Positions 9,288-24,880 of a stretch of DNA of 33,120 nt are shown piece after piece. Source of the DNA: a virus. The notes beneath the pieces are model-generated. The model did no database searches. It saw only the letters and a list, made by a program, of their open reading frames with translations, and had not been told where the DNA came from. Where the stretch lies: positions 1-33,120 of the IMG/VR virus record IMGVR_UViG_3300025118_005069; one strand, 5' to 3'. Numbering within the stretch: the stretch's first letter is position 1; each line of letters opens with the position of its first letter. The translations under genes and the position numbers were made by a program.

Positions 9288-10359
9288 AATTAAGTAAATC
9301 TCCATGAAGTTTTTTAACTTGCTCTATAACCTCAGGCTTATCTATGATAGTAACATTCACACCCTTTTTTGCAAGACCAACCGCAAAAGCTAGTTGTTGA
9401 GACTCCTCAATCATCGTGGACTCAGGCTTATAGGTTACTCCTTCAATTGTAATATTATCCTTTTCAAATGAATCAATCATAAATTGTAGATGTTCATTGT
9501 TACATCTGTCTGTAGCATCGCTAATATGAATAGCACAATCCTGTTCCTTTGCGTAGACTCCAAGCGCACGGTTATCTCTGGGGAAGCACGGACCCCCATA
9601 CCCATAACCATACTTAGTACACTTACTACCTACTCGCTGATCCGCTCCAATAGCATCTAGAATGTTTTGAGGTTCTCCTCCAACTTTAGTTGCTAAATCC
9701 CCCACCATGTTAGTGAAAGCAATCTTAGTGGTAATAAAACAGTTTAGTGCAATCTTACAAATCTCTGCGCTGATGGGCGACATGATGGAGTACGCTGGGC
9801 TGTTCTCAACTAAGCCTTCATACACTTTCTTAATCTTCTCCGAACTCTTCTCATTTCTAGACCCTATAAGAACCATGTCTGGGTAAAGCTGATCTCTAAT
9901 TACTGTCCCCTGTGCAATAAACTCTGGGTTATAAGAGACATTGTAGTTGTACTCCTCTAACTCTGTTTGTAGCTTATCGCAAAATTCAGGCATTACTGTG
10001 CAACCTACAATTAATTCTTTAGTTTCCTCTTGTCTTCCATAAGACTTTAACTCACCCCCTAACCTTACTAATTGAGTGTGGTCATACTTTCCATTAGGAA
10101 GAGAGGGAGTTGCCACAAGAGCAAAGAGAAGGTCAGAGTGTTGAAGTCCTGCCAAGGTGTTTGTTGTTGCTTTAAAATTTGTAGACTTTGATAGAAGATT
10201 GGTTACTTCATCTTCAGACGAGTTGAAATCTTTTGAATTAAGAAGTTCTACATACTCTTCCGAGATATCCACCCCCAAAACATTGAAGCCTTTTCGTTCA
10301 AGATTTAGAGCAAAACAAAGCCCCAGCTTACCCACACCAAATATTGTAATATTATTCAT
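9277..10359 (-). CDS. UDP-glucose/GDP-mannose 6-dehydrogenase family
   Basis: A 360-residue protein with an N-terminal Rossmann motif (GVGKLGL, 8-14), substrate-side YNPEFIAQGTVIRD (143-156), the central helix SAEICKIALNCF (Lys202, Asn206) and the catalytic-Cys motif GGPCFPRD (Cys258). These enzymes oxidise a nucleotide sugar twice to the uronic acid, reducing 2 NAD+. The C-terminal third is shorter than in typical 390-440-residue members. The substrate cannot be read from the sequence; UDP-glucose or a GDP/UDP-HexNAc are options. It lies in the glycan island between nadE and the GT17 gene, overlapping nadE by 11 bases. Confidence 0.92.
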   Translation of the reverse strand: MNNITIFGVGKLGLCFALNLERKGFNVLGVDISEEYVELLNSKDFNSSEDEVTNLLSKSTNFKATTNTLAGLQHSDLLFALVATPSLPNGKYDHTQLVRLGGELKSYGRQEETKELIVGCTVMPEFCDKLQTELEEYNYNVSYNPEFIAQGTVIRDQLYPDMVLIGSRNEKSSEKIKKVYEGLVENSPAYSIMSPISAEICKIALNCFITTKIAFTNMVGDLATKVGGEPQNILDAIGADQRVGSKCTKYGYGYGGPCFPRDNRALGVYAKEQDCAIHISDATDRCNNEHLQFMIDSFEKDNITIEGVTYKPESTMIEESQQLAFAVGLAKKGVNVTIIDKPEVIEQVKKLHGDLLNYGS

Positions 10360-11168
10360 GATTTAATTAAATGCTTAAATTTTTCTTTATTATCTAACAC
10401 ATACTGGGGGGCATGAATCTCATTTATAGAATATTTTTTATGTTGGGCACCGTGAGGAGGAAATCTAAAGAATCCCAAAAAATCAGTAGTCGTATTTATA
10501 CAATTTTGAATATAGTCTTCTGACAAAGAAGGAAATTGTTCTAAAATTTCTGTGTGACTAAAAGATTTAAGTTTATGAAAAATAGTTTTAGCATCTCCCA
10601 AATAGGAATAATGCCACCCTCCCTCAATTTTACTATTTAAAGCTATCTCCCTTCTAGATTCCCTATATGTTTGAATAGGAGTATGATCAAAATCTTTATT
10701 TCTAATAACAACGGTCCCTAACCAGTTAGCTATGTCTTGAGGAGATTCCACCTTAATATTTAAGGCATACCCAAAACATTGATGGGAAAAAACTGTGGGA
10801 GTTGGCATTTTTAAATTTATTAAAGAAGCTTCAGGAATTTCATCTAAATCGGAGATTAAAATTAAATCATCAGGTAAAGCATCCCCTAATCCTCGCATTA
10901 TACACCCTCTATGAAAATTATCTATGTGGTGTTGATATTCAATCTCTGCTGGCATGTCGCTCACAATCACATGAATAATTTTATGTAAAAACTTGGTATA
11001 TCTTTCTTTATTTTCTTCAAAATAAAGAGGCTTGCTTTGAAGTGAGTGAGTTTTTGTGCATTCTACAAGTACAAATTTATCCACGACTGTATCTAATTCA
11101 TTCAATCTAATTTCTAATAAATCTAGTTCATTAAAAAACATAAAGCAATCGTAAACTAAATTCTTCAT
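10356..11168 (-). CDS. glycosyltransferase family 17-like
   Basis: A 270-residue protein with the opening typical of GT17 (MGAT3-like): VYDCFMFFNELDLLEIRLNE, then VDKFVLVECTKTHS and KPLYFEENKERY, and an acidic DLDEIPEA loop likely to bind metal and donor. GT17 members transfer GlcNAc in beta linkage onto mannose in eukaryotes; viral and bacterial members are mostly uncharacterised. The ATG at 11168 overlaps the upstream stop by one base (TAATG), so it is preferred to the longer frame starting at 11186. Acceptor unknown. Confidence 0.8.
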   Translation of the reverse strand: MKNLVYDCFMFFNELDLLEIRLNELDTVVDKFVLVECTKTHSLQSKPLYFEENKERYTKFLHKIIHVIVSDMPAEIEYQHHIDNFHRGCIMRGLGDALPDDLILISDLDEIPEASLINLKMPTPTVFSHQCFGYALNIKVESPQDIANWLGTVVIRNKDFDHTPIQTYRESRREIALNSKIEGGWHYSYLGDAKTIFHKLKSFSHTEILEQFPSLSEDYIQNCINTTTDFLGFFRFPPHGAQHKKYSINEIHAPQYVLDNKEKFKHLIKS

Positions 11169-12025
11169 TAGTCTATACTTATCCAATTTTTACATATACA
11201 ATTATCAGGCTTTTCAGAAGAACCAAAATGAGGATATTGATAATTATGATTCAAAAATCTTTTAGGAGTAAAAATGAAGGATTTTTTTTGATTTAGCCAA
11301 GCACCCCACCAAGAAAAAGAAGACGCTGCTGTAATACAGTGGTCTGCATTAGCCATAAGAAATAAATCTATAATATTTGCCAAATTTGTAACGCCTGGTT
11401 CTGGGTCAGCAAAAACATGCGTAGATCTTACTAAATTTGGCAAGAAACTTAAAACATTCGCACTAGGATCATTAGATATTAGGAGGTAATTAAAATCATC
11501 AGAAGAAAGGCCAGTTCGTGCATACAATTCTGTTAATGCTTTTTTGTAATATTCATCACCTACCACGCAAGTAAACTCTGTATCAAAAGGACCTGTCTTC
11601 CCTGTTATTGCTCGATGATGAATACAAACAATAGGTTTTTTATCAAAACTTGAAAGTCTTTTTTCTACTAAAATATTTAATGAATCTTTTAAGGTAAAAA
11701 TCTTTAACAAATCTTCTCGGTAATCCTTAAAATATATTTCGCTTTGAAAAAATCCCTCAAGCTGAGTTTCATCAGAAATATTTAATAATTCTTGATACGT
11801 TGCTTCAGCAGTCCCCAAAGTTTGATGCTCGGGCGTGTGCAATCCTTTTTCTAAAAATTTATACTTAGAAGCAACAGCCTCTTCCTCTGGGGGGAGATCG
11901 AAAACATGAGCCCCCTCCCATACTCCTGAAGATATTAAAAACCCTAGCCTCTTAGAAGTAGCATACAAAGTGGCGTACTCAAAAAGCTGATTTCCAAATC
12001 TTCCCATATAATTAATTGACAGCAT
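11168..12025 (-). CDS. GT11-like (alpha-1,2-fucosyltransferase family)
   Basis: A 285-residue protein. N-terminal MGRFGNQLFEYATLYA matches the conserved GT11 start, followed by EGFFQSEIYFKDYREDLL and IVCIHHR, the GDP-binding His-x-Arg-type motif (here HHR). The C-terminal part has ITAASSFSWWGAWLN, the family's second signature. GT11 enzymes use GDP-L-fucose. No GDP-fucose synthase is seen, but a GDP-mannose 3,5-epimerase that would make the analogue GDP-L-galactose is in the same cluster. The ATG at 12025 avoids a longer overlap with the upstream gene. Confidence 0.85.
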   Translation of the reverse strand: MLSINYMGRFGNQLFEYATLYATSKRLGFLISSGVWEGAHVFDLPPEEEAVASKYKFLEKGLHTPEHQTLGTAEATYQELLNISDETQLEGFFQSEIYFKDYREDLLKIFTLKDSLNILVEKRLSSFDKKPIVCIHHRAITGKTGPFDTEFTCVVGDEYYKKALTELYARTGLSSDDFNYLLISNDPSANVLSFLPNLVRSTHVFADPEPGVTNLANIIDLFLMANADHCITAASSFSWWGAWLNQKKSFIFTPKRFLNHNYQYPHFGSSEKPDNCICKNWISID

Positions 12026-12854
12026 CACATAGTTCCTCCATGTCTGATGAGATATCATGTTTCCATTTAAATCCTAGAGCAGATAATTTACTAGAATCTA
12101 ACCACATATTCTTAACTTGCACTATTTTATGAAACGAAGAGGGGGACCTAGATGTAATTACACTAGTAGAACCAAGGTATGCCTTAGCTTTCTCCATTAA
12201 TATATGTAACGGCACAGGTTCATAGTTAGATCCTATATTTATTATCTCGTTCATGGGAGAATTCTTCACACAATACATTATAGCTCTTGACACATCCTCT
12301 ACATGAACATAATCTCTAATAACCTCCCCTCCATGGTATAGCTGTATATCACGATTATTTTTTAGCTCATTTATAAGGTATTGCAACGCATTTTTCTTAT
12401 CAGAATACTTGTCTCCCCCCCCATAAACATTTCCTAATCGTAAAATCCTATAAGGAACTTCAAATGTTTCACAGAAACTAATCAAAAGCTGTTCAGCACA
12501 TCTCTTGGTGATAGAATAAAAACCTTTGGGATCACAATAAGCCGTCTCACTTACAGGCAATTCCGATTCTCCATATACAAACCATGAGCTTATAAAATTA
12601 AAAACTTTATCACCCTCTTTACAGTTATTGAGAACTTTCAAGAGGTGGGTAAGGTTAGTATCAACATCTAAATGAAGATCAGACAAAACATTATAATTAT
12701 GAGTCGTGCTTATAAAATATACTATATCTTCATATGAAGGAACCGTTTCTAACTTAGGCTCCACATACACTAGTTCAGGATCCATGGAACAAAAATGGGA
12801 ACCGATGAAGCCCGTTCCCCCAAAAACAGAAATTATATTAGTTTTTCCAGTCAT
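12012..12854 (-). CDS. NAD-dependent epimerase/dehydratase (extended SDR)
   Basis: A 280-residue SDR with the dinucleotide motif GGTGFIGS near residue 12, the strand NFISSWFVYGESELP, the catalytic YSITK (Tyr-x3-Lys), RILRLGNVYGGGD, and the substrate-side GEVIRDYVHVEDVSRA and INIGSNYEP. Members act on UDP-, GDP- or dTDP-sugars as 4-epimerases, dehydratases or reductases. The exact reaction is not readable. It directly follows the RfbH-like dehydratase with an overlap of 17 bases, so it may reduce or epimerise that enzyme's keto-deoxysugar product (inference). Confidence 0.85.
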   Translation of the reverse strand: MTGKTNIISVFGGTGFIGSHFCSMDPELVYVEPKLETVPSYEDIVYFISTTHNYNVLSDLHLDVDTNLTHLLKVLNNCKEGDKVFNFISSWFVYGESELPVSETAYCDPKGFYSITKRCAEQLLISFCETFEVPYRILRLGNVYGGGDKYSDKKNALQYLINELKNNRDIQLYHGGEVIRDYVHVEDVSRAIMYCVKNSPMNEIINIGSNYEPVPLHILMEKAKAYLGSTSVITSRSPSSFHKIVQVKNMWLDSSKLSALGFKWKHDISSDMEELCDAVN

Positions 12855-14169
12855 TTTTTAATACGCTTTCTATATACTCAAATACTTTAGTGTCATAATG
12901 AGGAGATGCTCCTACAAAAAATACAGTATCTAACACCGTGTTAGCATTCTTATACTCTTTATAATCACCCAAATGTTGGTATCCAGGATGCAATAATATA
13001 TTCCCAGCAAAATAGTTTCTAGTTTGAATTCTATTCTTCTCTAAAAACATAACCAAATCATTTTTTTGTTCTCTATCCTTACACACAACGGGAGTCCCAA
13101 ACCAAGAAGTTATGGCTTCATTCATTTCTTTGGGAATTTTAATATCTTTAACATATCTAAGGAAGGAAGACTCAATTATGCGTTTACTCTCTCGTCTGCG
13201 TTCTTCTATTTCTTCCACTTTATCTAACTGTACTAGACCAATAGCTCCTTGTAAATCCAAAGGCTTCAGATTATATCCTATATTAGAAAAAACATATTTA
13301 TGGTCCACTATTCCATTATAATTAGGAAGCCAGTTATCAAATCTATTACAACAAGTCCCTTCAGGAAGCAAATTAGCAGCCCCCACACAATAGCAATCCC
13401 GTCCCCACCATGCAAAACTTCGGGCTATAGACACAAACTTACTGTTATTAGAAGAAACTAGACCACCCTCTCCTGTAGAAATGTGGTGAGCGGGATAAAA
13501 AGAATGAGAAGAAGCAACCGCATATTCAGACAATAGTTTACCTCTCCACTTACTCCCCAAGCTATCGCAGTTATCTAAAAGTAACACAATATCCCGTTTC
13601 TCACAAATCCTAACCAACCTATCCATATCTACGGGATTACCCAGCACTGGAGAGAGGATTATAGCTTTAGTCCTTGGGGTGATGGCCGATTCTACTAACT
13701 CTAAATCAAAATTTAAAGTATCCAACTCTATGTCACAAAATATAGGTTTTAAATTGTTCTGAATTATGGGAGCTAATGTAGTGGGAAATCCTACCACTGA
13801 TAAAATAACTTCAGCATCGTCCTCCCACTCAAAGAGTTTTTTAGCCGCCGCTAACATAACCAAATTTGCAGAACTACCTGAATTAACAGCTACAGCGTCC
13901 TTTTGGTTAAACACTCTACAAAACTTAACCTCAAACTTCCTTACCTTCTCCCCTGAAGAGACCCATTTTCCAAAAAGAAGAGAATCTATAGCAGCTACAA
14001 ATTCTTCTTCAGTCCAGTACGGGCCTGAATAATAAACATAATCTTTTTCGGGATCAAACCCCTTAGAATGCTTATTATAAATTGATTTAAGAAAATTCTT
14101 CTCGGACGAAAAATCATCCACCAAATCTCTTATTTTTTTTCTTCTCTCTATTTCAGTATAGTGTTCCAT
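12838..14169 (-). CDS. RfbH/DdhC-like PMP-dependent 3-dehydratase (DegT/DnrJ/EryC1 fold)
   Basis: A 443-residue fold-type I protein. The cofactor-binding residues include LLLDNCDSLGSKW (Asp199) and SFYPAHHISTGEGG, where His228 replaces the usual Schiff-base Lys. That substitution marks dehydratases (E1/RfbH/DdhC and ColD) rather than aminotransferases. RDCYC (Cys259, Cys261) and TCCNRF (Cys273, Cys274) occupy the iron-sulfur segment found in RfbH-type enzymes, and VFSNIGYNLKPLDLQGA is typical too. These enzymes remove the C3 hydroxyl of a 4-keto-6-deoxy nucleotide sugar using pyridoxamine phosphate, giving 3,6-dideoxyhexoses. The usual CDP-glucose partner genes are absent, so the substrate is open. 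Confidence 0.88.
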   Translation of the reverse strand: MEHYTEIERRKKIRDLVDDFSSEKNFLKSIYNKHSKGFDPEKDYVYYSGPYWTEEEFVAAIDSLLFGKWVSSGEKVRKFEVKFCRVFNQKDAVAVNSGSSANLVMLAAAKKLFEWEDDAEVILSVVGFPTTLAPIIQNNLKPIFCDIELDTLNFDLELVESAITPRTKAIILSPVLGNPVDMDRLVRICEKRDIVLLLDNCDSLGSKWRGKLLSEYAVASSHSFYPAHHISTGEGGLVSSNNSKFVSIARSFAWWGRDCYCVGAANLLPEGTCCNRFDNWLPNYNGIVDHKYVFSNIGYNLKPLDLQGAIGLVQLDKVEEIEERRRESKRIIESSFLRYVKDIKIPKEMNEAITSWFGTPVVCKDREQKNDLVMFLEKNRIQTRNYFAGNILLHPGYQHLGDYKEYKNANTVLDTVFFVGASPHYDTKVFEYIESVLKNDWKN

Positions 14170-14174
14170 AAAAT

Positions 14175-14852
14175 TTACTTAACTATGAGAGAGTTATACA
14201 GTTCCCACTGATCAATACAAGAATCATGGATTTCAGGTGTCTTTGCTACGTTAAAAGTTCTACCCATAAAGGGGAGATCCTGATCAGGAAAATTAGATAT
14301 ATCATGCACATGCTGCCACTCACACCCCTTAGCTACAACACTACTCCATCCACAGGCCCAAGCTTTCAATCCCAACCCATGCTCATCTGCTAAGGGACCG
14401 TTTAAGAAGTTGTACCCTCCTATATCATTAATCATTTCTAATCTATAAGCCAATAAAAATCCTTTAAGAGTGGGTCTTTTATGCTCTGGTCGGCCTCCTA
14501 TCTCTACCCCAACTATCCCTACGTCCTCCTCTTTAAATTCTTTAATCATCTTTTCATAAGTAGACGGACCCACTCGGCAATCGTCACTCAATGCTACCAC
14601 AAAAGGAGACTCACATAAGTTAAATCCCGTATTAAATGCTCGGGCACACCCTATATTTTGGGACATAATAGCATAGCGAGTAATTCTCTTGTCGGAAGAG
14701 CAATATTCTATAATTTTTTGAGTATCCTCACCATAAGGGTTAACCACTACGCAGAACTCAGAAGGTAAATGAGTAGAGGCATATGCCTCCTCTACGCACT
14801 GTTGTAAATTAGATAAACTTTTCCATCCAGTAGTAAAAATAGAGTATTCCAT
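14175..14852 (-). CDS. GT2-like glycosyltransferase
   Basis: A 225-residue GT-A-like protein starting MEYSIFTTGWKSLSNLQQC. It has SQNIGCARAFNTGF in the nucleotide-binding region and ALSDDCRVG in the place of the DXD metal motif, then LADEHGLGLKAWACGW and a helical end. The pattern is a short GT2 without membrane helices, so it is likely cytoplasmic. Donor and acceptor are unknown. It abuts the next gene with no gap. Confidence 0.75.
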   Translation of the reverse strand: MEYSIFTTGWKSLSNLQQCVEEAYASTHLPSEFCVVVNPYGEDTQKIIEYCSSDKRITRYAIMSQNIGCARAFNTGFNLCESPFVVALSDDCRVGPSTYEKMIKEFKEEDVGIVGVEIGGRPEHKRPTLKGFLLAYRLEMINDIGGYNFLNGPLADEHGLGLKAWACGWSSVVAKGCEWQHVHDISNFPDQDLPFMGRTFNVAKTPEIHDSCIDQWELYNSLIVK

Positions 14853-15752
14853 TTAATTTTCCTCAGTATAAACTTCGATTTGTTCCTTTAGGTATCTGTC
14901 AAAAGAGATGTATTTATGTGCAATTTCAAAATTATTTTTAATAGCTTCTCTCCTACTATCATAGTCTTCGACGCTCAAATTATCCAACACTTCTTCAAGG
15001 TCATCTAAATTAGAAAATTCTAAACATCCATCTATATCGAAGAACTCTCCCACGTTCGTAGGGCTCCATACTATGGGAACTGTTCCCGTGAAAAAACAAT
15101 TTAATAGTTTCTCATCAAAATAATTTTTACACCTAATGCTATGAATTACCATAGCATATCTATAATCTTTGAAAGCTCTAAAAAGATTTCCAGTAACTTT
15201 CAAATAAGCTCCTTTCAATGTCTCCGTAGATTCATTCTTATAGTCCTCATATAAATTTTTATAAAAAGGGCCATAACAATCCATCTTATTCCCATATTGC
15301 TTTATAACTTCATGCCTTAGTCTATGCCCTTCGGCCCACACCTTCTCACTCGCTACAATAGAAAGTGATTTACTTTTATTATATATTTTTATGTCTTCTT
15401 TTAAAATATATGCTCCTGCTAGGAATGGAAACAATCTAAATTTAGAAGAGATACTTAGAAGACGTTCATCATGAGTGAATATAGCGTCAAACTTATTTAC
15501 TAAGTTTGGATTCTCCGCTAAAGCCATATAAGCATCAGGTTTAATGGATTTAGGTTCTATAAATAGCCCAAATTTATATTTAGAGGAGACCTGATCAACA
15601 ACAGGATGAAGTATTAGCTCGTCTGTAAAGACTGTTGGCCCGTCAAACTCTAAAAGAGGAGGACGGATGTATTCTACATCATTGCAAGGTTGCCATCCGT
15701 TAAACCATAGATTACAGGAAGGATTATTAGTATCAAATAAATTAATTTTCAT
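14853..15752 (-). CDS. GT10-like (alpha-1,3/4-fucosyltransferase family)
   Basis: A 299-residue protein. The C-terminal half has the GT10-type donor-binding segment: YRYAMVIHSIRCKNYFDEKL, then LNCFFTGTVPIVW, matching the family's 'E-N-x-x-x-x-Y-(V/F)-T-E-K-L ... G-x-V-P-I-x-W' shape. The N-terminal acceptor domain is divergent, with FGLFIEPKSIKPDAY. Known members use GDP-L-fucose. This is the second fucosyltransferase-like gene in the cluster. It overlaps the GT8-like gene by 11 bases. Donor specificity is inferred only. Confidence 0.75.
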   Translation of the reverse strand: MKINLFDTNNPSCNLWFNGWQPCNDVEYIRPPLLEFDGPTVFTDELILHPVVDQVSSKYKFGLFIEPKSIKPDAYMALAENPNLVNKFDAIFTHDERLLSISSKFRLFPFLAGAYILKEDIKIYNKSKSLSIVASEKVWAEGHRLRHEVIKQYGNKMDCYGPFYKNLYEDYKNESTETLKGAYLKVTGNLFRAFKDYRYAMVIHSIRCKNYFDEKLLNCFFTGTVPIVWSPTNVGEFFDIDGCLEFSNLDDLEEVLDNLSVEDYDSRREAIKNNFEIAHKYISFDRYLKEQIEVYTEEN

Positions 15753-16533
15753 AGAGGTAACTATAATCCTTAGAAACTGCGTTAACTTTTCCTTCTTCGG
15801 TAAATTCCCCTTCTATACCATACAAACAAGGTCCCGCATAATGAATAAAATTAGCTTCATATCTGTGGTTATCTGAATCATATTCGCCCAAACTTATCCT
15901 ATTAAAGGAATGATCTAAAGATTCATTGGGAATATTATATTTTTGAATCAAAGCATTAAAATAAGTTTGATCATTAAAATCATATATATTTTCACAATCT
16001 TTTAATGATAATAATTTTTCCTCATCCGTTATCCACGAACTACTATCCTTCCCGAATAGCATCACACCCATATTGTAATAAACATGTTTCTCTCTTTCAT
16101 TCTTTTTCCAAGGGAAAGGCTCGTCTAAATTTTCAATAACTCTTTTAACGTAAGGGTCTCTATCCATAACGTCTTCATCTCCTCCGTATAAAGTTTTTCC
16201 CGTTATCCCTACCTCTTGGCTTTCATCGTAGCCATAATATTTCTCAGGATCAGGATACTCTTCAAATATATTTTTTGCATGAGGGGTAATTAAAACATCT
16301 GCGTCTAAGTAAAGAACCTGGTCAAAATCCTGGTCAAATAGCTGACGAATCTGTAGCTTCTCAAAGAAAAAGTTAGCGGTGGGATTGGGTCCGTAAGGCC
16401 ACCCAGTAATCATCTGCTGGGATATGAAGTGCTGGATGTCGTACTTTTCACAATAAGAGTGTTGTGATTGTAAACATTTTTGCCAGTGGGGTCTAACTCC
16501 TCCAATACATAAATTAAAAATAGCTTTTTTCAT
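15742..16533 (-). CDS. GT8-like glycosyltransferase
   Basis: A 263-residue protein with VLYLDADVLI (the DXD motif, metal and nucleotide binding), YYNMGVMLFG, DFNDQTYFNALI and a late FIHYAGP. These occur in this order in GT8 retaining transferases, such as glycogenin and LPS galactosyltransferases. No signal peptide or transmembrane helix is seen. RBS AAGGAAC lies upstream. It transfers a hexose from a UDP-sugar in known members; the acceptor here is unknown. Confidence 0.8.
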   Translation of the reverse strand: MKKAIFNLCIGGVRPHWQKCLQSQHSYCEKYDIQHFISQQMITGWPYGPNPTANFFFEKLQIRQLFDQDFDQVLYLDADVLITPHAKNIFEEYPDPEKYYGYDESQEVGITGKTLYGGDEDVMDRDPYVKRVIENLDEPFPWKKNEREKHVYYNMGVMLFGKDSSSWITDEEKLLSLKDCENIYDFNDQTYFNALIQKYNIPNESLDHSFNRISLGEYDSDNHRYEANFIHYAGPCLYGIEGEFTEEGKVNAVSKDYSYLYEN

Positions 16534-16544
16534 AAGAAAGTTCC

Positions 16545-16847
16545 TTATAACTCAACACATTTATCTTCAAAGAATACATCATAGTAAGGTTTCCCCATGC
16601 GTAACTCATGATACTTAGCTCCCCACTTCTTCAATTGATCACGAGTTACGTCATAGCATAATTCATAAGCTTTATGTATATTACCTTTGGCTCTGGTCAT
16701 GCCTCTTGCTGTCCAGTAAATAATAGTGTGCCCTTCTTCATATAATTCATTAATTTTATTTATCTTACTTAAAAAAGGATAACACTCTTCGTACTTACCC
16801 TTTGTGTCACTACAAATAGTACCATCAATATCCACAAAGTAAATCAT
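16545..16847 (-). CDS. small HAD phosphatase, EcbF/BcbF-like
   Basis: A 100-residue HAD-fold protein. Motif I is VDIDGTIC (nucleophile Asp), motif II is IIYWTARGM (Thr), and the end has GKPYYDVFFEDKC as motif III/IV. It is the short, capless variety often found in capsule and LPS gene clusters (EcbF/BcbF type). The ATG at 16847 forms an ATGA overlap with the transaldolase stop; an upstream ATG at 16856 is possible. In a heptose route it could supply the phosphatase step that GmhB normally performs (inference). Confidence 0.82.
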   Translation of the reverse strand: MIYFVDIDGTICSDTKGKYEECYPFLSKINKINELYEEGHTIIYWTARGMTRAKGNIHKAYELCYDVTRDQLKKWGAKYHELRMGKPYYDVFFEDKCVEL

Positions 16848-17509
16848 TTTATCCATTCTCTAAAATCGTTTAGAAACTCTTCCACAGACGTATCGGTAGA
16901 CGGGTGAATCATCATTTTCCTTATCACAGAAAATCCAGCGGTTACAATATGGGAACCAGCATCCCACGCATCGGATACGTCCTTTGCGCTTCTAATGCTC
17001 CCAGAAATAATCTCACAGTTAAGTTCGTTGGTTTCTATAAATTGACGTACCTTCTTAATAACCTCAATAGGATCTCCTCCGCAATCTAAAAGACGATTAT
17101 AGAATAAGGATACATACCTAGCTCCAGACAAAGCAGCCATCTCCATCTGAGTTGCCGTGAAGCAACAAGTACAATTGACAGCTACCCCAGAGGAACTGAG
17201 CTTATTTATAATTTTTAACTCCTCGTACCCTACAGGAATTTTTATATTTACGTTTGTATAGTCGCTTTCCTTATAGATAGAAAAAGCCTGTTCATACATT
17301 TCAGAGGGGGTTTCGGCAAACACTTCTACACTTAAAGGGACCCTTTTGATCTCCTTACACAAAGAAACAATCTTCTTTATGTGCTTGATAAAATTCTCCT
17401 TCGGTTCCTTCGATAAAAGAGAGGGATTAGTGGTTACTCCTTCAACAGCACCTGTGCTTAACGAATTTTCTATATCATTTAAATTAGCGGTATCTATAAA
17501 TAACTTCAT
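16844..17509 (-). CDS. transaldolase / fructose-6-phosphate aldolase family
   Basis: A 221-residue single-domain TIM-barrel enzyme of TalC/FSA size. Conserved features are FIDTAN (Asp6), TTNPSLL (26-32), the Schiff-base lysine in VNIKIPV (Lys90), NCTCCFTATQ, and the strand ending ISGSIRSAKDV. Transaldolases move a dihydroxyacetone unit between sugar phosphates and can form or consume sedoheptulose 7-phosphate. Cyanophages and some other marine phages carry TalC for carbon flux. Here it sits among heptose-type genes, so sedoheptulose 7-phosphate supply is an alternative reading. It overlaps the cupin gene by 4 bases. Confidence 0.9.
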   Translation of the reverse strand: MKLFIDTANLNDIENSLSTGAVEGVTTNPSLLSKEPKENFIKHIKKIVSLCKEIKRVPLSVEVFAETPSEMYEQAFSIYKESDYTNVNIKIPVGYEELKIINKLSSSGVAVNCTCCFTATQMEMAALSGARYVSLFYNRLLDCGGDPIEVIKKVRQFIETNELNCEIISGSIRSAKDVSDAWDAGSHIVTAGFSVIRKMMIHPSTDTSVEEFLNDFREWIK

Positions 17510-17922
17510 TTTTCTATATGCCTATACTTTCTTCCATCTTCAACCAGATGTGAATCCGAATCATCATCCTTTGTAGAAACTTCAATAATTATTACATCTT
17601 CTTCTGCAATTCTCATGTGCATCAACCCCACTGGGATATGAAAGATGTCTCCCTCGTTTAAAATAACAGACTTATTTTCTGCTCTCCCAACCCGTAGCCC
17701 TACCTTAAGCCTACCCTTTTCAATGTAATAAGATTCTTCCTTCTTAACATGATACTCTAAGCTGCTTTGTGTATTTGCCCTCATAAAAATACGTTTTACC
17801 GTATAATTATCGCCCTCAAAAATAGTGTGCATCTCCCCCCAGTATTTTTTTATACTTTTCAGTGGTTTGCATACAGGAGGTAAAATTTGAATACCGTAAG
17901 ATATTTCAGTATTATTGTCCAT
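17506..17922 (-). CDS. cupin protein, sugar-phosphate isomerase-like
   Basis: A 138-residue single-cupin protein. The first cupin motif is around SLEYHVKKEESYYIEKGRLKV (His then Glu and a Gly turn), and the second is LNEGDIFHIPVGLMHM (His). This is the layout of type II phosphomannose isomerase cupins and related sugar-cluster cupins, though the substrate is not evident. Start 17922 is used, with GGAGG about 11 bases upstream; the longer frame to 17961 overlaps the kinase heavily. It lies between the kinase and transaldolase genes. Confidence 0.75.
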   Translation of the reverse strand: MDNNTEISYGIQILPPVCKPLKSIKKYWGEMHTIFEGDNYTVKRIFMRANTQSSLEYHVKKEESYYIEKGRLKVGLRVGRAENKSVILNEGDIFHIPVGLMHMRIAEEDVIIIEVSTKDDDSDSHLVEDGRKYRHIEK

Positions 17923-17923
17923 G

Positions 17924-18823
17924 CTACTTCGTTCCTCCGTGATTTTTAGATAGAAACTCATTTAAATCTCCCATATTAGGGGTTCTGGTTCCTATGTTAG
18001 TAGTTGATAGTGCAGCCCATGCGTTACAAAAAGCCAATGCTTCTATTATTGACAGGTGGGATACAATACATAAAGAAAAGGCAGCAAGAAAGGCATCCCC
18101 TGCTCCGCAAGGGTCAACGCACTTAGCCTTGTACCCTGCATGGGATATCTCTGTATTAAAATCAGAGAATGAACACCCCTCCGCTCCCAAAGTGGTACAC
18201 CCCACAAAAGATTTTCCGTATCCCTCAGATTCCTCCTTATTCATGCACATATAATCAGAATTTTCAAATAACAAATATCTATTTTTTCTATCCGACATCT
18301 GTGAGCTAGATATGACGGGGATACCATAAGTATGAGCAGTCTCAATAATATAATCAACTTCCCCAAACATACCTAATCCATAATCAACAAGAACTACAGA
18401 ATCTATATTTTTCATGTGATGCTCTATCGTTGGAATACGGTGAGAATAAGGTGTAGAACTAGTTTTATTTATTTGAAGATATTTATACCGTTCTTCTCCT
18501 TTAGTGGACCAAATTCTAGTTTTAACATTATTATCTGTATCCACCAAAAGGGGAGAAAACCAAAACTTATCGCTACTTTTTTTCCACTCTGTAAAATACC
18601 TTTTGTAACTATCATTTCCTAGAGGAGTAAGAAACCTACAAGAAGCTCCCAAGGCTAGTATATTCTCGACCACATTAGCGGCTCCCCCCAAACTTACGGA
18701 TCTCTCAACTTCTTTCAGCTTTAGAGTTGGGGATTCCAAAGAGACCCCCACAGCTTCGCCAATAATAGTCTCATCAATGATACTATCCCCGATAACTAAA
18801 ATATTTTTATTCTTAAAATTCAT
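17924..18823 (-). CDS. PfkB-family sugar kinase, HldA-like
   Basis: A 299-residue ribokinase-fold kinase. It begins MNFKNKNILVIGDSIIDET, then has SLGGAANVVENILALGA, and near the C-terminus DPCGAGDAF, whose last Asp is the catalytic base. The order and wording follow domain I of HldE (D-glycero-beta-D-manno-heptose-7-phosphate kinase). The ATG at 18823 overlaps the stop of the RpiB-HldC fusion by 11 bases; upstream ATGs are less convincing. In E. coli the kinase and the adenylyltransferase are one protein; here they are separate, and the transferase is fused to another enzyme. Heptose substrate is inferred. Confidence 0.85.
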   Translation of the reverse strand: MNFKNKNILVIGDSIIDETIIGEAVGVSLESPTLKLKEVERSVSLGGAANVVENILALGASCRFLTPLGNDSYKRYFTEWKKSSDKFWFSPLLVDTDNNVKTRIWSTKGEERYKYLQINKTSSTPYSHRIPTIEHHMKNIDSVVLVDYGLGMFGEVDYIIETAHTYGIPVISSSQMSDRKNRYLLFENSDYMCMNKEESEGYGKSFVGCTTLGAEGCSFSDFNTEISHAGYKAKCVDPCGAGDAFLAAFSLCIVSHLSIIEALAFCNAWAALSTTNIGTRTPNMGDLNEFLSKNHGGTK

Positions 18824-19703
18824 TATCGGGATGCTCATAGAGCCCATTCTCCAAAGTATCCAACCGTTGTATTTTACGAATTGTGTCAGTGGTAGAATAG
18901 TTCTGTACTAGAGGAAAAATATTAACTTGAACATCCTCAGGAATATTGTCACGATGGCGAACTTCGTCGGCACTCCATTCTCCTCCCTTCACAACAATAT
19001 TGGGAGAAATTTTATTACGAACCTCTTTTAAATTACCATCAAAAATAATAACCTCATCAACTTCAATTAATGATTCTAAAAGTTTCTTTCTATTATCTTC
19101 GTTATTAATAGGTCTAGTTTTTCCTTTTAACTTTCGTACTGATTTATCACTGTTAATGGCTACTACTAACCTACCCCCTAACCTTTTAGAAAATTGCAGT
19201 AGCTCTAGATGCCCAGTATGGAGAATATCAAAAACTCCGTTAGTAAATATTATTTTTTGGGGGGAGTTATCTAATTTTGACAACCGTTTATTATGCCTTC
19301 CCTCCCCAAAGGACTCATTCAACCATATATCAACGATTTCCTGATTTGTATCATAAGAATTAGACCAGCTACCTAAACAGAGAATATTAGAATCATTATG
19401 CTCTCTACATTTGGCCGCAGTATCTATATTGTGAACTAACGCCGCCCTAACACCCTCATACCGATTAGCAGCAATACTCATGCCAACACCTGTACCACAT
19501 AAAAGTATTCCTCTAAAAGAAGAATTACTGTTTATGATCTGACTAAGCTGTTTAGCATAGTCCGCGTAATCCACGCTTTTCAGAGTGTCATGCGGACCCA
19601 GATCAATTACGGTGAACCCCTTTGATTTTAGGCTATCGGATATTGATAGTTTTTGTGACACTCCGTTATGGTCTGCGCCTAAAATTATAATATTATTTTT
19701 CAT
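18813..19703 (-). CDS. RpiB-type isomerase fused to HldC-type nucleotidyltransferase
   Basis: A 296-residue two-domain protein. Residues 1-145 are RpiB/LacA-like: GADHNG (Asp11, His12), GILLCGTGVGMSIAAN with the Cys69 of the active site, and EHNDSNILCLGS. Residues 150-280 are a nucleotidyltransferase like the C-terminal half of HldE: TNGVFDILHTGH (HxGH-type motif, 162-165), INSDKSVRKLKGKTRPIN, ISPNIVVKGGEW and the ending STTDTIRKIQ. RpiB-type enzymes interconvert aldose and ketose phosphates. HldC-type enzymes adenylylate heptose 1-phosphate. The fusion joins two steps of one apparent sugar-activation route. It overlaps the GT9-like gene by 11 bases. Confidence 0.88.
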   Translation of the reverse strand: MKNNIIILGADHNGVSQKLSISDSLKSKGFTVIDLGPHDTLKSVDYADYAKQLSQIINSNSSFRGILLCGTGVGMSIAANRYEGVRAALVHNIDTAAKCREHNDSNILCLGSWSNSYDTNQEIVDIWLNESFGEGRHNKRLSKLDNSPQKIIFTNGVFDILHTGHLELLQFSKRLGGRLVVAINSDKSVRKLKGKTRPINNEDNRKKLLESLIEVDEVIIFDGNLKEVRNKISPNIVVKGGEWSADEVRHRDNIPEDVQVNIFPLVQNYSTTDTIRKIQRLDTLENGLYEHPDNEF

Positions 19704-20688
19704 GAAAAAAGTCCCTGTAAGTATATTGAGCTAGTTTAACTGGGTCAACAGTTTCGCACGAGGTGTCACAAGTAGCGGATAAATCTTCCCATCCTCTAAG
19801 CTTCTTCATCTGCTCCCCACAACGTAGGGTGCATTTGGAATGAAGGTCCCAATATAGAGTAGTATTTTTACTAGCGTAGTGATATAATTTGTTTATAGTT
19901 TGAGCAGCCAATAAGACTATATCCTTATCCTGAGAATTAAATATATGGTGCATCCCCCCATCAGCCAACACCGTAACTCTCGGCTTTGCAGCTTCGTAGG
20001 CAAGATCTTTCCACGGCATATGACCCACATGGACATCCCCAAAGTTTAAGAAATCTTTTGAGAACTCCATAATCTTAATATCAGGATCAAGTCGTTTAAT
20101 CTCATCTACGAACTCTCTCCACGACCCTCCCTGATCTCCATTAAATCTGAATCCTTTTCCATCGCAGCCTGGATGGGCCGTAGGATTGGTCGGAGTGATT
20201 TTCTGTGCGGGTACAATGGCTAAAGTCTTCTCCTCTACTGGAGGCTTCTCTATAAATATTTTTGGAAAAAGATCAGTACCATCGTGTAGATATTTCTCTA
20301 ACCCTAACTGGAGCACGGAATTCAAATATAGTAAATTTGCAGTAGGATGTTTGTAAAGATAATCAAAGTTATCATTCCAGTAGTCCCAGCAGCGCGGGTG
20401 ACGCTCCGCAAAAAGAACAAACATATTTTCTGGTAGATTCTTCCTGCCGTTATTGGCCTCTTGCTTCCAAAAATCATAAGTACCAATTAAATTTTCATTG
20501 GGATTGGCTATCTCATCCACTAAGGGGTTATCCCTCATAATATCAACTAACTCACCTACAGTAATAACTACCAGTTTTGAGTCGGGGTACTCTTTCTTTA
20601 GGAGAGTGGGAGCAAAAGACCAATGTACAGAATCTCCCAAATTTTGAGGATAGAACCATCTAGGAATTACTAAATAAATTGTTTCCAT
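19693..20688 (-). CDS. GT9-like (heptosyltransferase family) glycosyltransferase
   Basis: A 331-residue protein. The N-terminus reads NLGDSVHWSFAPTLLKKEYP, then KLVVITVGELVDIMRDNPLVDEI, which mirrors the opening of ADP-heptose:LPS heptosyltransferases. The second half has LAIVPAQ, a GGSWREFVDEIK helix and a DGGMHHIF donor-side loop. The C-terminal ~55 residues have several cysteines (KCTLRCGEQ, SATCDTSCE) that may bind metal or form disulfides, unusual for the family. GT9 enzymes add heptose to LPS inner core or other sugars. Neighbouring HldA/HldC-like genes make heptose the natural donor hypothesis. Confidence 0.7.
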   Translation of the reverse strand: METIYLVIPRWFYPQNLGDSVHWSFAPTLLKKEYPDSKLVVITVGELVDIMRDNPLVDEIANPNENLIGTYDFWKQEANNGRKNLPENMFVLFAERHPRCWDYWNDNFDYLYKHPTANLLYLNSVLQLGLEKYLHDGTDLFPKIFIEKPPVEEKTLAIVPAQKITPTNPTAHPGCDGKGFRFNGDQGGSWREFVDEIKRLDPDIKIMEFSKDFLNFGDVHVGHMPWKDLAYEAAKPRVTVLADGGMHHIFNSQDKDIVLLAAQTINKLYHYASKNTTLYWDLHSKCTLRCGEQMKKLRGWEDLSATCDTSCETVDPVKLAQYTYRDFFHEK

Positions 20689-20690
20689 TT

Positions 20691-22169
20691 TTATTTACTT
20701 CTCCTTAAAATACTTCTCGGGAGATCCCCTTGACCCATGCTATGCTCAAACTTTACAAACCCACCAGCAGGATTAAAAGGAATGTTTAGTGTGTCTCTAA
20801 CCTCGGCTTCCAACTTCTCTCTTTCTATTACTAAATCATTAGCAGAAATATGATCAGTCCAAACATAAGATTTATACCCACCATCTGGATCTCCCTTATA
20901 ATAGTCGGGTTCCTCTAAATAATTCAAATCCTTTTGGTACAATTTATCCCCCGTGCGGGGTTGAGTGTATACATAATAATCTTTCTCTTTAATAGCTTCA
21001 TCAAAGTAAGGGGAACCTGGGTAAGTAGTTATGATGGTGCAATCAAAATCTTCTGGTTCGTTTTCAAGTAACCAATTCTTCGTATTCTCTATAGTTTCCT
21101 TACTCTCTCCCGCATGGCCGATGGACATGAGAGCTTTCACTTTTAATCCAGCATTCTTAGCGTACTGTACACACTTAGTGTTGGCAGCTACATCAGCATT
21201 CTTCTCTATGTTGGTCAGGATACTCTCGTCACCAGACTCAAATCCAGTTAAAAGCCATCGGAATCCTGCTGCATACATTAGGTCCGCTTGTCTCTGGGTG
21301 AATAATTCAGCCTTTACAAATCCTCTAAACATGAACTGTTCATTAACTTCTTTTTGTAAGGCAATCAACTTCTCTAAAAGAGATTCCCACTCTTTATTTA
21401 CATTCAACTCATCATCATAAAACATAAAACCAGTAAATCCATAAGTATCATATAGATGACGAACTTCATCCACCACAGAATCAGATGATCGAGTACGAAT
21501 TTTTCTTAAGAAAGGAGAATTTCTACCACCACAAAAGGTACACTTAAAAGGACATCCTAATTGACAAATTAAACTCGTAGCTTTAGCTCCCTCGATACTG
21601 TAATGATAAGAGTCCATATCCACTAAATGCCGTGCAGGAAGAGGAAGATCCTCTAACTCATCATTAGTAAGAAATAACCCGCCCTTGGGAACATCAGCAT
21701 CCACTATACCCCTATCAGTGTCAAGAGCTTCAAAAATAGCTTTCTCCCCATCCCCAGCAACCAGAACATCGAAAGTATCTAACAACGCTCCAATATCCCG
21801 TGTGGCTCTTCCAGAAAACTTTTCTTTCTTTGCAGCAGAGTTCATAAGGGAGGGATGGGGACCTCCTAAGATAATTTTAGACTCTGGGGCAAGTTCTCGT
21901 ATATTATTAGCTATCTTAAAAGCAAAAGGTATTTGAGGGGTGGTTGCTGTTAGACCAAAAGTTTTAATAAATGGATTTTGATTTAAATAAGTATCCAATA
22001 CTTCTTCACAATTCTTTACCCCAGCTAAATCTAGAAAATCAACAAAATATCCCCTCTCCTCTAAAGCCGCTGCTACTTTTAGAATACCTATATGAAGAAA
22101 AACTCGTTCATCCAGTAAAAAGGGAGAAGGTGGAGTAATAAAACAAATAGTTTTATTTACTGATAACAT
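20691..22169 (-). CDS. B12-binding-domain radical SAM protein
   Basis: A 492-residue protein. The N-terminal ~150 residues form a cobalamin-binding-type domain (IILGGPHPSLM at 99-109, then LVAGDGEKA). The radical SAM core has CPFKCTFC (Cys206, Cys210, Cys213), binding a 4Fe-4S cluster and SAM, followed by GFMFYDDELNVN and GFESGDESIL. Such enzymes methylate unactivated carbons or rearrange substrates in glycan, lipid and natural-product pathways. Its place among glycosyltransferases suggests sugar or lipid-carrier modification, but the substrate is unknown. It overlaps the downstream side of a GT2 gene by 17 bases. Confidence 0.92.
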   Translation of the reverse strand: MLSVNKTICFITPPSPFLLDERVFLHIGILKVAAALEERGYFVDFLDLAGVKNCEEVLDTYLNQNPFIKTFGLTATTPQIPFAFKIANNIRELAPESKIILGGPHPSLMNSAAKKEKFSGRATRDIGALLDTFDVLVAGDGEKAIFEALDTDRGIVDADVPKGGLFLTNDELEDLPLPARHLVDMDSYHYSIEGAKATSLICQLGCPFKCTFCGGRNSPFLRKIRTRSSDSVVDEVRHLYDTYGFTGFMFYDDELNVNKEWESLLEKLIALQKEVNEQFMFRGFVKAELFTQRQADLMYAAGFRWLLTGFESGDESILTNIEKNADVAANTKCVQYAKNAGLKVKALMSIGHAGESKETIENTKNWLLENEPEDFDCTIITTYPGSPYFDEAIKEKDYYVYTQPRTGDKLYQKDLNYLEEPDYYKGDPDGGYKSYVWTDHISANDLVIEREKLEAEVRDTLNIPFNPAGGFVKFEHSMGQGDLPRSILRRSK

Positions 22170-22860
22170 CCAAAGCAGTCCTCACTTGTTCACTTAAATT
22201 TTGTTTGTGTTCGTTGTTCATATGGGATAAATTATAAACTAAAAGAATATCTTCAATAAACTCTACTTTAGAATACCCAATTTTTTCTAATATAGGAACA
22301 AAAATAACTACATCTGCTGCTGCTGTATAAAAATTACCTTCCTTATCCCTAAAATTATGATCTTCTATCAAATCCCATAAATGTCTTTTAAAGGTTCTTA
22401 GGTGAGAGAAGGGCCATCCATCTATAACCGCTTGGCGTGGGCTACCTGTGTACTCTCTGGCTATACATTCACCTCCTGTGGTAGAGCTATAACTTCCGTA
22501 GGTTAACCAACATTCTGTATCTTCGTAAACCTTATCTACTTTGGATAACGCATGTTCATTTATAAACCAATCATCTCCATCTAACTGAACAATTATATCT
22601 TCGCTGTCTGCCTCCGAATTTTCTACTCCCTTTTTATGATTTAAGGGAACCCCTATTCTTTTATCATTTTTAATTATCTTAAATCGTTCGTCACCGCAAA
22701 TAGCCTTCTCAGCCTTTTCAACTGTGGCATCCATAGAATTATCATCTACTATAACCTGAGTAAAGTTAGTATGCGTTTGATCTTTAACTGATTGAATGCA
22801 CTTACCTATCCACTTCTCAGCGTTATAGACAGGAGTTATAATTCTAAAAGTGTTTTCCAT
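22153..22860 (-). CDS. GT2 glycosyltransferase
   Basis: A 235-residue GT-A family 2 protein. It opens with FRIITPVYNAEKWIGKCIQS, then VIVDDNSMDATVEKA, and has IVQLDGDDWF with the DXD-type metal site. These are the standard GT2 landmarks in order. There is no membrane helix, so it acts in the cytoplasm, probably on a lipid-linked or protein-linked acceptor. The C-terminal end overlaps the radical SAM gene start. Confidence 0.88.
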   Translation of the reverse strand: MENTFRIITPVYNAEKWIGKCIQSVKDQTHTNFTQVIVDDNSMDATVEKAEKAICGDERFKIIKNDKRIGVPLNHKKGVENSEADSEDIIVQLDGDDWFINEHALSKVDKVYEDTECWLTYGSYSSTTGGECIAREYTGSPRQAVIDGWPFSHLRTFKRHLWDLIEDHNFRDKEGNFYTAAADVVIFVPILEKIGYSKVEFIEDILLVYNLSHMNNEHKQNLSEQVRTALDVISK

Positions 22861-23633
22861 GATTCTAATATCCTATCTTCTTCCCAATACTCTGAATGTT
22901 TAGAAGATCCAAACAGGTCGTTAAAGGGAATTCCATGCTGTTCGCACTCATGCCTAACTAACCCATAAGTCTCAGCCCTACTTGCATGATAAACAGCATC
23001 AATCATGTTATACATAACTGTTTTATCGTCATACTTCCCTACTATCTTAACCCTCGTATTATTCTTTATTAAAGATCTAACCTGTTCTTGGTAATAATCT
23101 TCATCGGTTACGCTCCCAAAAATAAGGATTCGGGTGCCTTTCGGCTCAGAATCCAAGGCAGCTTGAATTGCCAAGGCCGTCTGCTTGTGGCTGTCAATGC
23201 TTCCTATTATACCCACAGCCCCTCGTTTATGTGAACCTTTTCTCTCACATTTATCGACAATATTAGGAATAACAACAGAGGGAGTATCAACATCCTGCCA
23301 ATCTCTTTGCCACTCGGAGACAAAGTGTATAGTGTCCACAGATTGAAGGGGTTTCTCTTTAAGAGGAAATAATATTGTTTCGTGGCAAGAGAAGATCACC
23401 TTCTTTATTGGAATTTTTTCTTCTTTTAGGGGAACAAAGTGAGCTATGAGAGTATCTTCTTCATCTGTTATATCTAATCTAGAGGTGTTCGCAGATCTGC
23501 ACTTATCCAAATGCCAGTTATGTGGGCCATAGAATATAGCATCAATGCCCGCCTTATTTAGCAAATTAGTTAGATTAATGAACGCAACGGTTGAGCCACC
23601 AGGGTTGGACCAACCAGATAATATCCTAACCAT
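22836..23633 (-). CDS. GT4-like glycosyltransferase (short)
   Basis: A 265-residue GT-B-type protein. The N-terminal domain begins MVRILSGWSNPGGSTVAF, then a central HFVSEWQRDWQ and VVIPNIVD, and the donor domain has GAVGIIGSIDSHKQTALAI, RILIFGSVTDE and a family-like DAVYHASRAETYGLVRHE. The E-x7-E of GT4 appears only in degraded form around ETYGLVRHE. Start 23633 overlaps the upstream stop by 8 bases. It is shorter than typical GT4s (about 350-400). Confidence 0.75.
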   Translation of the reverse strand: MVRILSGWSNPGGSTVAFINLTNLLNKAGIDAIFYGPHNWHLDKCRSANTSRLDITDEEDTLIAHFVPLKEEKIPIKKVIFSCHETILFPLKEKPLQSVDTIHFVSEWQRDWQDVDTPSVVIPNIVDKCERKGSHKRGAVGIIGSIDSHKQTALAIQAALDSEPKGTRILIFGSVTDEDYYQEQVRSLIKNNTRVKIVGKYDDKTVMYNMIDAVYHASRAETYGLVRHECEQHGIPFNDLFGSSKHSEYWEEDRILESWKTLLEL

Positions 23634-24834
23634 TCCCACTGAACGACCACTCCTTGTTATAGGTTGCTTCCTTGTGCCTCTCACTCAGGAGCTTAAAGCA
23701 CTGCTCATACAGCTCCAGTCTGTGCTTTGCCACCTTATTGATGTCGAAGTATTCGTCCGTTATTTGACGTAGATTACGGCCCATCGTCTCAACGTGCTTG
23801 GGGTTTTTTATACATTTCGAGAGGATCTTAACCCACTGGCTTCTTGGGGCATCGGGATCTATTAAATACCCTGTCTCCCCGTTAACTATAGTTTCATCAT
23901 AACATCCTACATTGGAGGCTATCAAGGGTACTTTATATCTCCCACACTCAGCTACCTTAATCTCACTCTTACTATCATTAAACGCATTCATCTGAAGTGG
24001 TGCTATTGCTAACTCCATGTTGGCATACATACTGCCATATCTATCTGGGGGAAGAGCTTGTCCTATAGACCAATTATTTGCTTTCTTAAACCCCCCAAGG
24101 AGTATCCTTTTATAGTTATCCCACACCTCGTTCTGCCATTCTTTGGCTTTGCCCTTCTCTTGAGGTGCAGGTGCGCCATAAAAATCCCACTGTACCTTTT
24201 CTTTTCCTACCTTTTGATTCACCGACCACGGTACCCCAGCAAACTCTTTAACGTCTTCCTCATGATGAATCCCACCTGCCCATCCTACCCTACTTACTCC
24301 CTTTATCTTTACTCGTTGCATGTTCCAACAAGGAAGAGTATAATCAATAGAATTTTTTATAACTGCGAGAACTCCTCCTACAAAAGACTTAACTCTCTCA
24401 GCAAATTTCTTCTGCGTCACAGTAACGAGGTCAGCATTGAAATACATCCATTTAGTTATTTCATATAAATTCTTTTCTTCATAGGTTTGTTTTAATCTAT
24501 GTCCTTCGTACAACTCGGTAAGGAGATCATCGGTATCAAAATGAACAAACTTACCTCTCTGCTTTGAGATTCCTATAACTCTCGCTGTGTAGGGGCCACC
24601 AAAGTTAGAAATATTATTTATAAGAACTATATCGGCCCAATCTATATCAGGATAAGGTGCATCATCTGTTGGCATCTCTCCTGTTTCCATATTTAGTTGT
24701 AGGGGATTTTGAACAAGCTTAACTTCAACTTTGTCTGGGTATAGTTGGGCTAGTTTTTGTAATGGCATGATAAGACGATAGTAAGCACATCCTCCTTCGT
24801 TTGCATAAACACCAAGGATTTTAAGTTTGTTCAT
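23626..24834 (-). CDS. GT4-like glycosyltransferase
   Basis: A 402-residue GT-B protein. It opens with ILGVYANEGGCAYYRLIMPL, typical of phage/LPS GT4s, followed by GKFVHFDTDDLL and a C-terminal donor domain with VGWAGGIHHEEDV, ELAIAPLQMNAFNDSKSEIKVAEC (acidic E-K-E-type motif) and VPLIASNVGCYDETIVNGETG. It is the first gene of the glycan island in the direction of transcription. The hairpin at 24848-24880 is immediately upstream, so the gene needs read-through or a promoter near that hairpin. Confidence 0.85.
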   Translation of the reverse strand: MNKLKILGVYANEGGCAYYRLIMPLQKLAQLYPDKVEVKLVQNPLQLNMETGEMPTDDAPYPDIDWADIVLINNISNFGGPYTARVIGISKQRGKFVHFDTDDLLTELYEGHRLKQTYEEKNLYEITKWMYFNADLVTVTQKKFAERVKSFVGGVLAVIKNSIDYTLPCWNMQRVKIKGVSRVGWAGGIHHEEDVKEFAGVPWSVNQKVGKEKVQWDFYGAPAPQEKGKAKEWQNEVWDNYKRILLGGFKKANNWSIGQALPPDRYGSMYANMELAIAPLQMNAFNDSKSEIKVAECGRYKVPLIASNVGCYDETIVNGETGYLIDPDAPRSQWVKILSKCIKNPKHVETMGRNLRQITDEYFDINKVAKHRLELYEQCFKLLSERHKEATYNKEWSFSGNG

Positions 24835-24847
24835 TTGTTTCTCTAAT

Positions 24848-24880
24848 AAAAAAAGGAGGTAGTTTAAAACTACCTCCTTA
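24848..24880 (-). terminator. rho-independent terminator
   Basis: A 10-bp stem (AAGGAGGTAG paired with CTACCTCCTT, extendable by 3 A-T pairs) is followed on the minus strand by a run of seven T. It sits 35 bases after the lipoprotein stop at 24915 and 14 bases before the GT4 start at 24834. It ends the SSB-holin-lipoprotein transcription unit. A TATAAT box (24880-24885) abuts its upstream side. Confidence 0.92.

Follow-up and report, generated by a model that had tools for sequence, protein, structure and literature searches.

The bacterial adenosine diphosphate (ADP)-heptose pathway, which comprises GmhA, HldA or HldE, GmhB and HldC, is among the closest described counterparts of a six-gene cassette carried by an uncultured virus, IMG/VR record IMGVR_UViG_3300025118_005069. 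The window considered here is this complete record (33,120 bases), and its open reading frame (ORF) map places the cassette on the minus strand at 16545-20688, where six consecutive ORFs overlap one another by short distances, exactly as the initial annotation had described. Cassette and bacterial pathway are alike in the order of their steps, in possessing an HldA-like kinase and an HldC-like nucleotidyltransferase, and in the GT9 genes found nearby in some loci. They differ in that the cassette has an RpiB-HldC fusion in place of GmhA and an EcbF-like HAD phosphatase in place of GmhB, adds TalC, a cupin and (in relatives) an AraD-like epimerase, and contains no kinase-HldC fusion.

Comparable gene sets have also been found in phages. 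In the cyanophage cluster (P-SSM2, S-SSM7 and P-TIM68; T4-GC 304-307), homologs of HldC, the kinase, the HAD and the cupin are encoded side by side in genomes without GmhA, and these proteins are 23-50% identical to those of the window; however, HldC is unfused there, neither RpiB nor AraD is adjacent, and the kinase retains the R-x-D motif. The kinase/HldC/HAD/cupin core is already known from cyanophages. Genes for uridine diphosphate (UDP)-arabinose/ara-hmC in RB69-type phages (ORF055c, ORF53_52c and a HAD) likewise combine a phage isomerase with a kinase/nucleotidyltransferase and with a HAD from the family seen in the cassette, for a proposed sugar activation, but the isomerase is a SIS protein and the nucleotidyltransferase is RmlA-like, both unrelated to the cassette enzymes, and the role is DNA modification. 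In Synechococcus phage SynMITS9220M01 (L007 5266-6423), a PfkB-like kinase and a HAD lie next to a gene that combines RpiB with a sugar nucleotidyltransferase; here the nucleotidyltransferase comes first and has an unrelated fold (PF00483), and the gene is annotated as 'phosphatase'. Two unions of RpiB with a sugar nucleotidyltransferase thus exist, made with transferases that are not related to each other and found in a similar neighborhood. The earlier statement that no phage system of this organization had been described is incomplete: no paper on an RpiB-HldC fusion or on phage heptose activation was found in the literature searched, but the cyanophage core cluster and the analogous pentose set of RB69-type phages were already on record. 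As far as that literature shows, what is new is the joining of RpiB to HldC, the addition of AraD and TalC to this fusion, the breadth of its distribution among viruses, and a replacement of Arg113 by Trp in the RpiB domain.

The fusion is encoded on the minus strand at 18813-19703 as a single uninterrupted frame of 296 codons, in which an RpiB-type isomerase (residues ~5-146) is followed by a short linker and a nucleotidyltransferase of the HldC/HldE-C type (residues ~147-280). The Pfam profile of RpiB covers residues 6-146 (153.7 bits) and the NCBIfam profile of HldC/rfaE domain II covers residues 144-279 (138.3 bits), the second half scoring 138 bits against the heptose family versus 50 against glycerol-3-phosphate cytidylyltransferase. 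In an AlphaFold model built from 19 fusion sequences, with a predicted local distance difference test (pLDDT) score of 83, the top fold matches were RpiB structures for the first domain and Burkholderia HldC (5XF2) for the second, and the distance from the last RpiB arginine to the start of HldC is 12-15 residues in all fusions compared. Considering that the source is uncultured and that an AraD gene has been lost, the locus might be viewed as an assembly artefact or as degenerate leftovers without any pathway, for which nothing else speaks. A second contig, IMGVR_UViG_3300017705_000783 (72.6 kb), shares 19,874 bases with the window at 99.965% identity and carries the same genes; this overlap and the other fusion contigs led to the rejection of an artefact, and the recurrence of the intact architecture in 34 viral contigs and two bacterial genomes, with invariant catalytic residues, makes leftovers extremely improbable.

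A single-protein scan for close relatives returned only this sister contig. A DNA pattern demanding three motifs in succession, HND.N of RpiB, then GRH, then FD..H.GH of HldC, was run on 2.9 million viral contigs in two variants distinguished by the His codon, yielding 24 matches for one codon and 10 for the other. All 24 matches of the first scan were verified as one-frame fusions, with 54-75% identity to the window and 100% for the sister contig. When one codon variant of the pattern was applied to 84,980 bacterial and archaeal species genomes, a single match was obtained, in a Taylorbacteria metagenome-assembled genome, and a second bacterial fusion came to light when the proteins of 380 genomes from the same phylum (Patescibacteria) were searched; among deposited phages, none of 50,697 records covers 80% of the protein. 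The architecture, which the initial annotation had proposed to look for in other genomes, is thus present in 34 viral contigs and two Patescibacteria. With 34 viral contigs against one match in bacterial species genomes (obtained with one of the two patterns), the cassette seems much more frequent among viruses and may represent a mostly viral sugar pathway.

In viruses the fusion is usually followed by the HldA-like kinase, then in most cases by the AraD-like epimerase, and then by the cupin, TalC and the HAD. The operon is conserved in all viral loci of sufficient length, although some lineages have the HAD upstream or further downstream. Both Patescibacteria encode the fusion together with AraD, TalC, the kinase, the cupin and a GT9 protein, and in one of them (L060 2321-3421) the cupin is fused to the HAD, which joins those two steps. 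Genes of both the cyanophage and the fusion-cassette types are found together in locus L035 and partly in L028 and L042. In L035 (12270-13755), the fusion cassette is followed immediately downstream by a second HldC/kinase/cupin set, of the cyanophage type, which would mean that one phage produces two distinct activated sugars.

Based on gene content and order, their conservation, the domain folds and the conserved catalytic residues, all of which were observed, we infer every reaction, substrate, nucleotide and acceptor in the following scheme. With a probability of about 0.5, the cassette is a virus-borne sugar activation system built on ADP-heptose logic, whose substrate would most likely be the C7 sugar sedoheptulose 7-phosphate, supplied by TalC. 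The RpiB half would convert the ketose phosphate to an aldose phosphate, taking the role of GmhA; the HldA-like kinase would place a phosphate on C1; the short HAD would remove the terminal phosphate; and the HldC half would combine the sugar 1-phosphate with a nucleotide, probably giving an ADP-sugar. In most relatives, the AraD-like epimerase would tailor the ketose phosphate, a step apparently lost in the lineage of the window, and the cupin may serve as an additional sugar-phosphate isomerase or epimerase. The product would then be passed to glycosyltransferases of the surrounding cluster. Unusual sugars made by phages can disguise DNA or virions, or remodel the surface of the infected cell, and this small enzyme set could reveal a new isomerase activity as well as a new nucleotide sugar.

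Several features of the individual enzymes are consistent with this scheme. The HldA-like PfkB kinase (17924-18847, minus strand, likely start 18823) carries the GAGD catalytic motif, has HldA as its best family (PfkB/rfaE_dom_I-like; TIGR02198, 115.7 bits) and matches HldA 4E84 in the PDB; the closest relatives of the kinase and the nucleotidyltransferase are HldA and HldC. TalC (16844-17509, minus strand) is of the transaldolase type (TIGR00875, 165 bits; phrog_440, transaldolase) and is encoded in all viral cassettes whose sequence extends far enough. All 23 distinct TalC proteins contain SVEVF or SAEVF together with YVSLFY or YVSFFY, which places Glu and Phe at the positions that we take to separate transaldolase from fructose-6-phosphate aldolase. 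Further support comes from the GT9 neighbors in several loci, from the loss of Arg113 in RpiB and from the independent union of RpiB with another nucleotidyltransferase in SynMITS9220M01.

On the other hand, a number of observations weigh against a heptose. The kinase falls below the HldA cut-off (345 for TIGR02198), and the R-x-D motif of HldA has been replaced by YLQIN. The HldC half is likewise under its heptose-specific NCBIfam cut-off (138.3 vs 181.5), while the RpiB domain lies just over that of the ribose-5-phosphate isomerase B equivalog (139.4 vs 138.65). RpiB and AraD are by family pentose-phosphate enzymes, RB69-type phages, for which synthesis of UDP-arabinose is assumed, have a HAD of the same family, and most fusion phages have no recognizable GT9. 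The heptose route of the initial annotation is accordingly retained in part: HldA and HldC remain the best families, but the heptose-specific cut-offs were missed, most relatives possess AraD, and RpiB passes its equivalog cut-off.

The RpiB active site is well conserved, with Asp11, His12, Cys69, Thr71, His102, Arg136 and Arg140 invariant in an alignment of 19 fusions, and the domain exceeds the cut-off of NF004051 (164.6 vs 135). Every one of the 29 distinct fusions has Trp at position 113 (M. tuberculosis RpiB numbering, Arg there). Of 10 aligned bacterial RpiBs that are unfused, seven have Arg here and the remaining three Gly, Asp or His; the two PDB chains likewise have Arg. In M. tuberculosis RpiB, Arg113 contacts the phosphate and partially covers a tunnel-shaped pentose pocket, and its replacement is the sole structural difference noted between RpiB and LacAB, which has a wider hexose-phosphate site (PMC3755991). 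Together with a Val at position 75 of AraD, the Arg113Trp exchange suggests that the substrates differ from the usual pentose phosphates.

No GmhA-type domain (SIS_2) scored over the cut-off in any of 27 records, which comprised fusion-bearing records and complete cyanophage genomes and included viral contigs of up to 284 kb, with positive controls; the window and its sister contig lay outside that search, and no GmhA-like ORF was seen in either. Because GmhA did not pass the cut-off in the searched records, RpiB is the only recognizable aldose-ketose isomerase of the set, the cupin apart, and the simplest reading is that RpiB acts in place of GmhA. The isomerase, kinase, phosphatase and nucleotidyltransferase set with RpiB for GmhA, as first annotated, is borne out at this level. 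A more specific proposal is a new GmhA-independent route to a nucleotide-heptose absent from the hosts, in which sedoheptulose 7-phosphate would be isomerized by an RpiB-type enzyme that has its own nucleotidyltransferase as fusion partner. This appears rather unlikely; if true, and if the stereochemistry of RpiB/LacAB is kept, the product would be a gluco instead of a manno heptose, or its 4-epimer through AraD in most relatives.

The AraD-like epimerase is one of the grounds for a pentose. In most relatives a gene of ~227 codons occupies the junction between kinase and cupin (17919-17927 in the window, minus strand), where locus comparison shows it to be absent. The encoded protein scores 205 bits over its full length against E. 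coli L-ribulose-5-phosphate 4-epimerase (1JDI), versus 53 for the next aldolases, and exceeds the NCBIfam subfamily cut-off of NF006047 (273.6 vs 257). His95, His97, Asp120, His171 and Tyr229, which we take to be the catalytic residues, are kept in the cassette relatives; Ser75 of the PSSD motif, presumably a phosphate contact, is Val in 20 of 22 cassette AraDs, whereas the E. coli enzyme and four further members of the AraD family have Ser. Among deposited phages, AraD matched bacterial contigs or metagenomic clones of unverified nature. Of 24 fusion records, 20 encode AraD; those without it are the window, the sister contig, G003 and the 197-kb G021, and a relocated copy was looked for elsewhere in the window and in the 72.6 kb sister contig and not found. 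Because both AraD-less groups cluster with AraD-bearing ones in the fusion-protein tree, the gene was probably lost twice while the rest of the cassette was kept, as expected for an optional tailoring step. The absence of AraD from the initial annotation is explained by its loss in this lineage.

With AraD full-length and its catalytic residues intact, the cassette might activate a C5 sugar as a nucleoside diphosphate (NDP)-arabinose or NDP-ribose. AraD would convert xylulose 5-phosphate to L-ribulose 5-phosphate and RpiB would produce L-arabinose 5-phosphate (or ribose 5-phosphate from D-ribulose 5-phosphate), after which the kinase would form a 1,5-bisphosphate, the HAD would take off the 5-phosphate, and HldC would yield the NDP-sugar. 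This accords with the RpiB family being a pentose isomerase and with the same logic and HAD family serving arabinose in RB69-type phages. However, AraD has disappeared twice with the remainder retained, host ribose 5-phosphate would require no phage isomerase, residues contacting phosphate are gone from both RpiB (Arg113Trp) and AraD (Ser75Val), and TalC, superfluous for a pentose, is always present, so that a pentose product is considered somewhat unlikely.

The cupin (17506-17961, minus strand; Pfam Cupin_1 and MannoseP_isomer) probably starts at 17922, directly downstream of a GGAGG sequence, and it shows distant, weak similarity to the C-terminal domain of mannose-6-phosphate isomerase. 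This similarity, the make-up of the cyanophage cassettes, where the cupin accompanies HldC, kinase and HAD while GmhA and an adjacent RpiB are lacking, and the cupin-HAD fusion of the Patescibacterium would fit a division of labor in which RpiB and TalC merely feed the pentose-phosphate pool (sedoheptulose 7-phosphate) and the cupin is the true GmhA substitute. Such an arrangement is judged quite unlikely: that RpiB was joined to different nucleotidyltransferases twice independently suggests that it is itself a pathway step, and the cupins of the cassette family, which conserve E-x-H...E...H, do not have the first metal histidine (E-x-H). The short HAD phosphatase (16545-16856, minus strand) is EcbF/BcbF-like in profile searches, with 38 bits and far from the cut-off of 162, and its family is common to the window, cyanophages and RB69-type phages. 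The names of PHROGs 1238 and 7851, 'phosphoheptose isomerase' for a HAD and 'cysteine dioxygenase' for a cupin of sugar clusters, look like misannotations carried into cyanophage records and were not used as evidence.

The first gene of the cassette (19693-20688, minus strand) encodes a divergent, near-orphan protein that is possibly a GT9-like glycosyltransferase. It has no Pfam or NCBIfam match, even at a relaxed E value, and only hhalign relates it to GT9 proteins of related loci (probability 85%). GT9 genes adjoin the cassette in both Patescibacteria and in several phages. The original family calls therefore agree with profile searches for five of the six genes, the GT9 call being weak, and structure prediction, which had been proposed as a check, recovered the RpiB and HldC folds of the fusion, whereas the single-sequence AlphaFold model of this first protein (mean pLDDT 35) is unusable for fold assignment.

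The cassette is embedded in a glycan gene cluster (7582-24834), an unbroken minus-strand run of 17 kb in which Pfam identifies NAD-dependent epimerases, an NAD synthase, a UDP-glucose dehydrogenase-like protein, a DegT aminotransferase, GT2/4/8/10/11/17 glycosyltransferases and a B12-binding radical SAM protein. The phage itself encodes a contractile-tail sheath and T4-like replication proteins and is far from every deposited phage; in this setting, glycosylation of the virion or of the cell surface would be the likeliest use of the cassette. Just upstream of the cluster head, a strong intrinsic terminator lies on the minus strand at 24853-24879, with a perfect 12-bp stem and a T run (fold z-score -3.8). 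The NadE-like NAD synthase gene of the cluster (8553-9305), whose counterpart adjoins the cassette in L025 (9256-10020), could have a role in NAD supply or counter-defence. In addition, a B12-binding radical SAM protein is encoded close to the cassette in two phages (window 20691-22169; L028 9104-10597).

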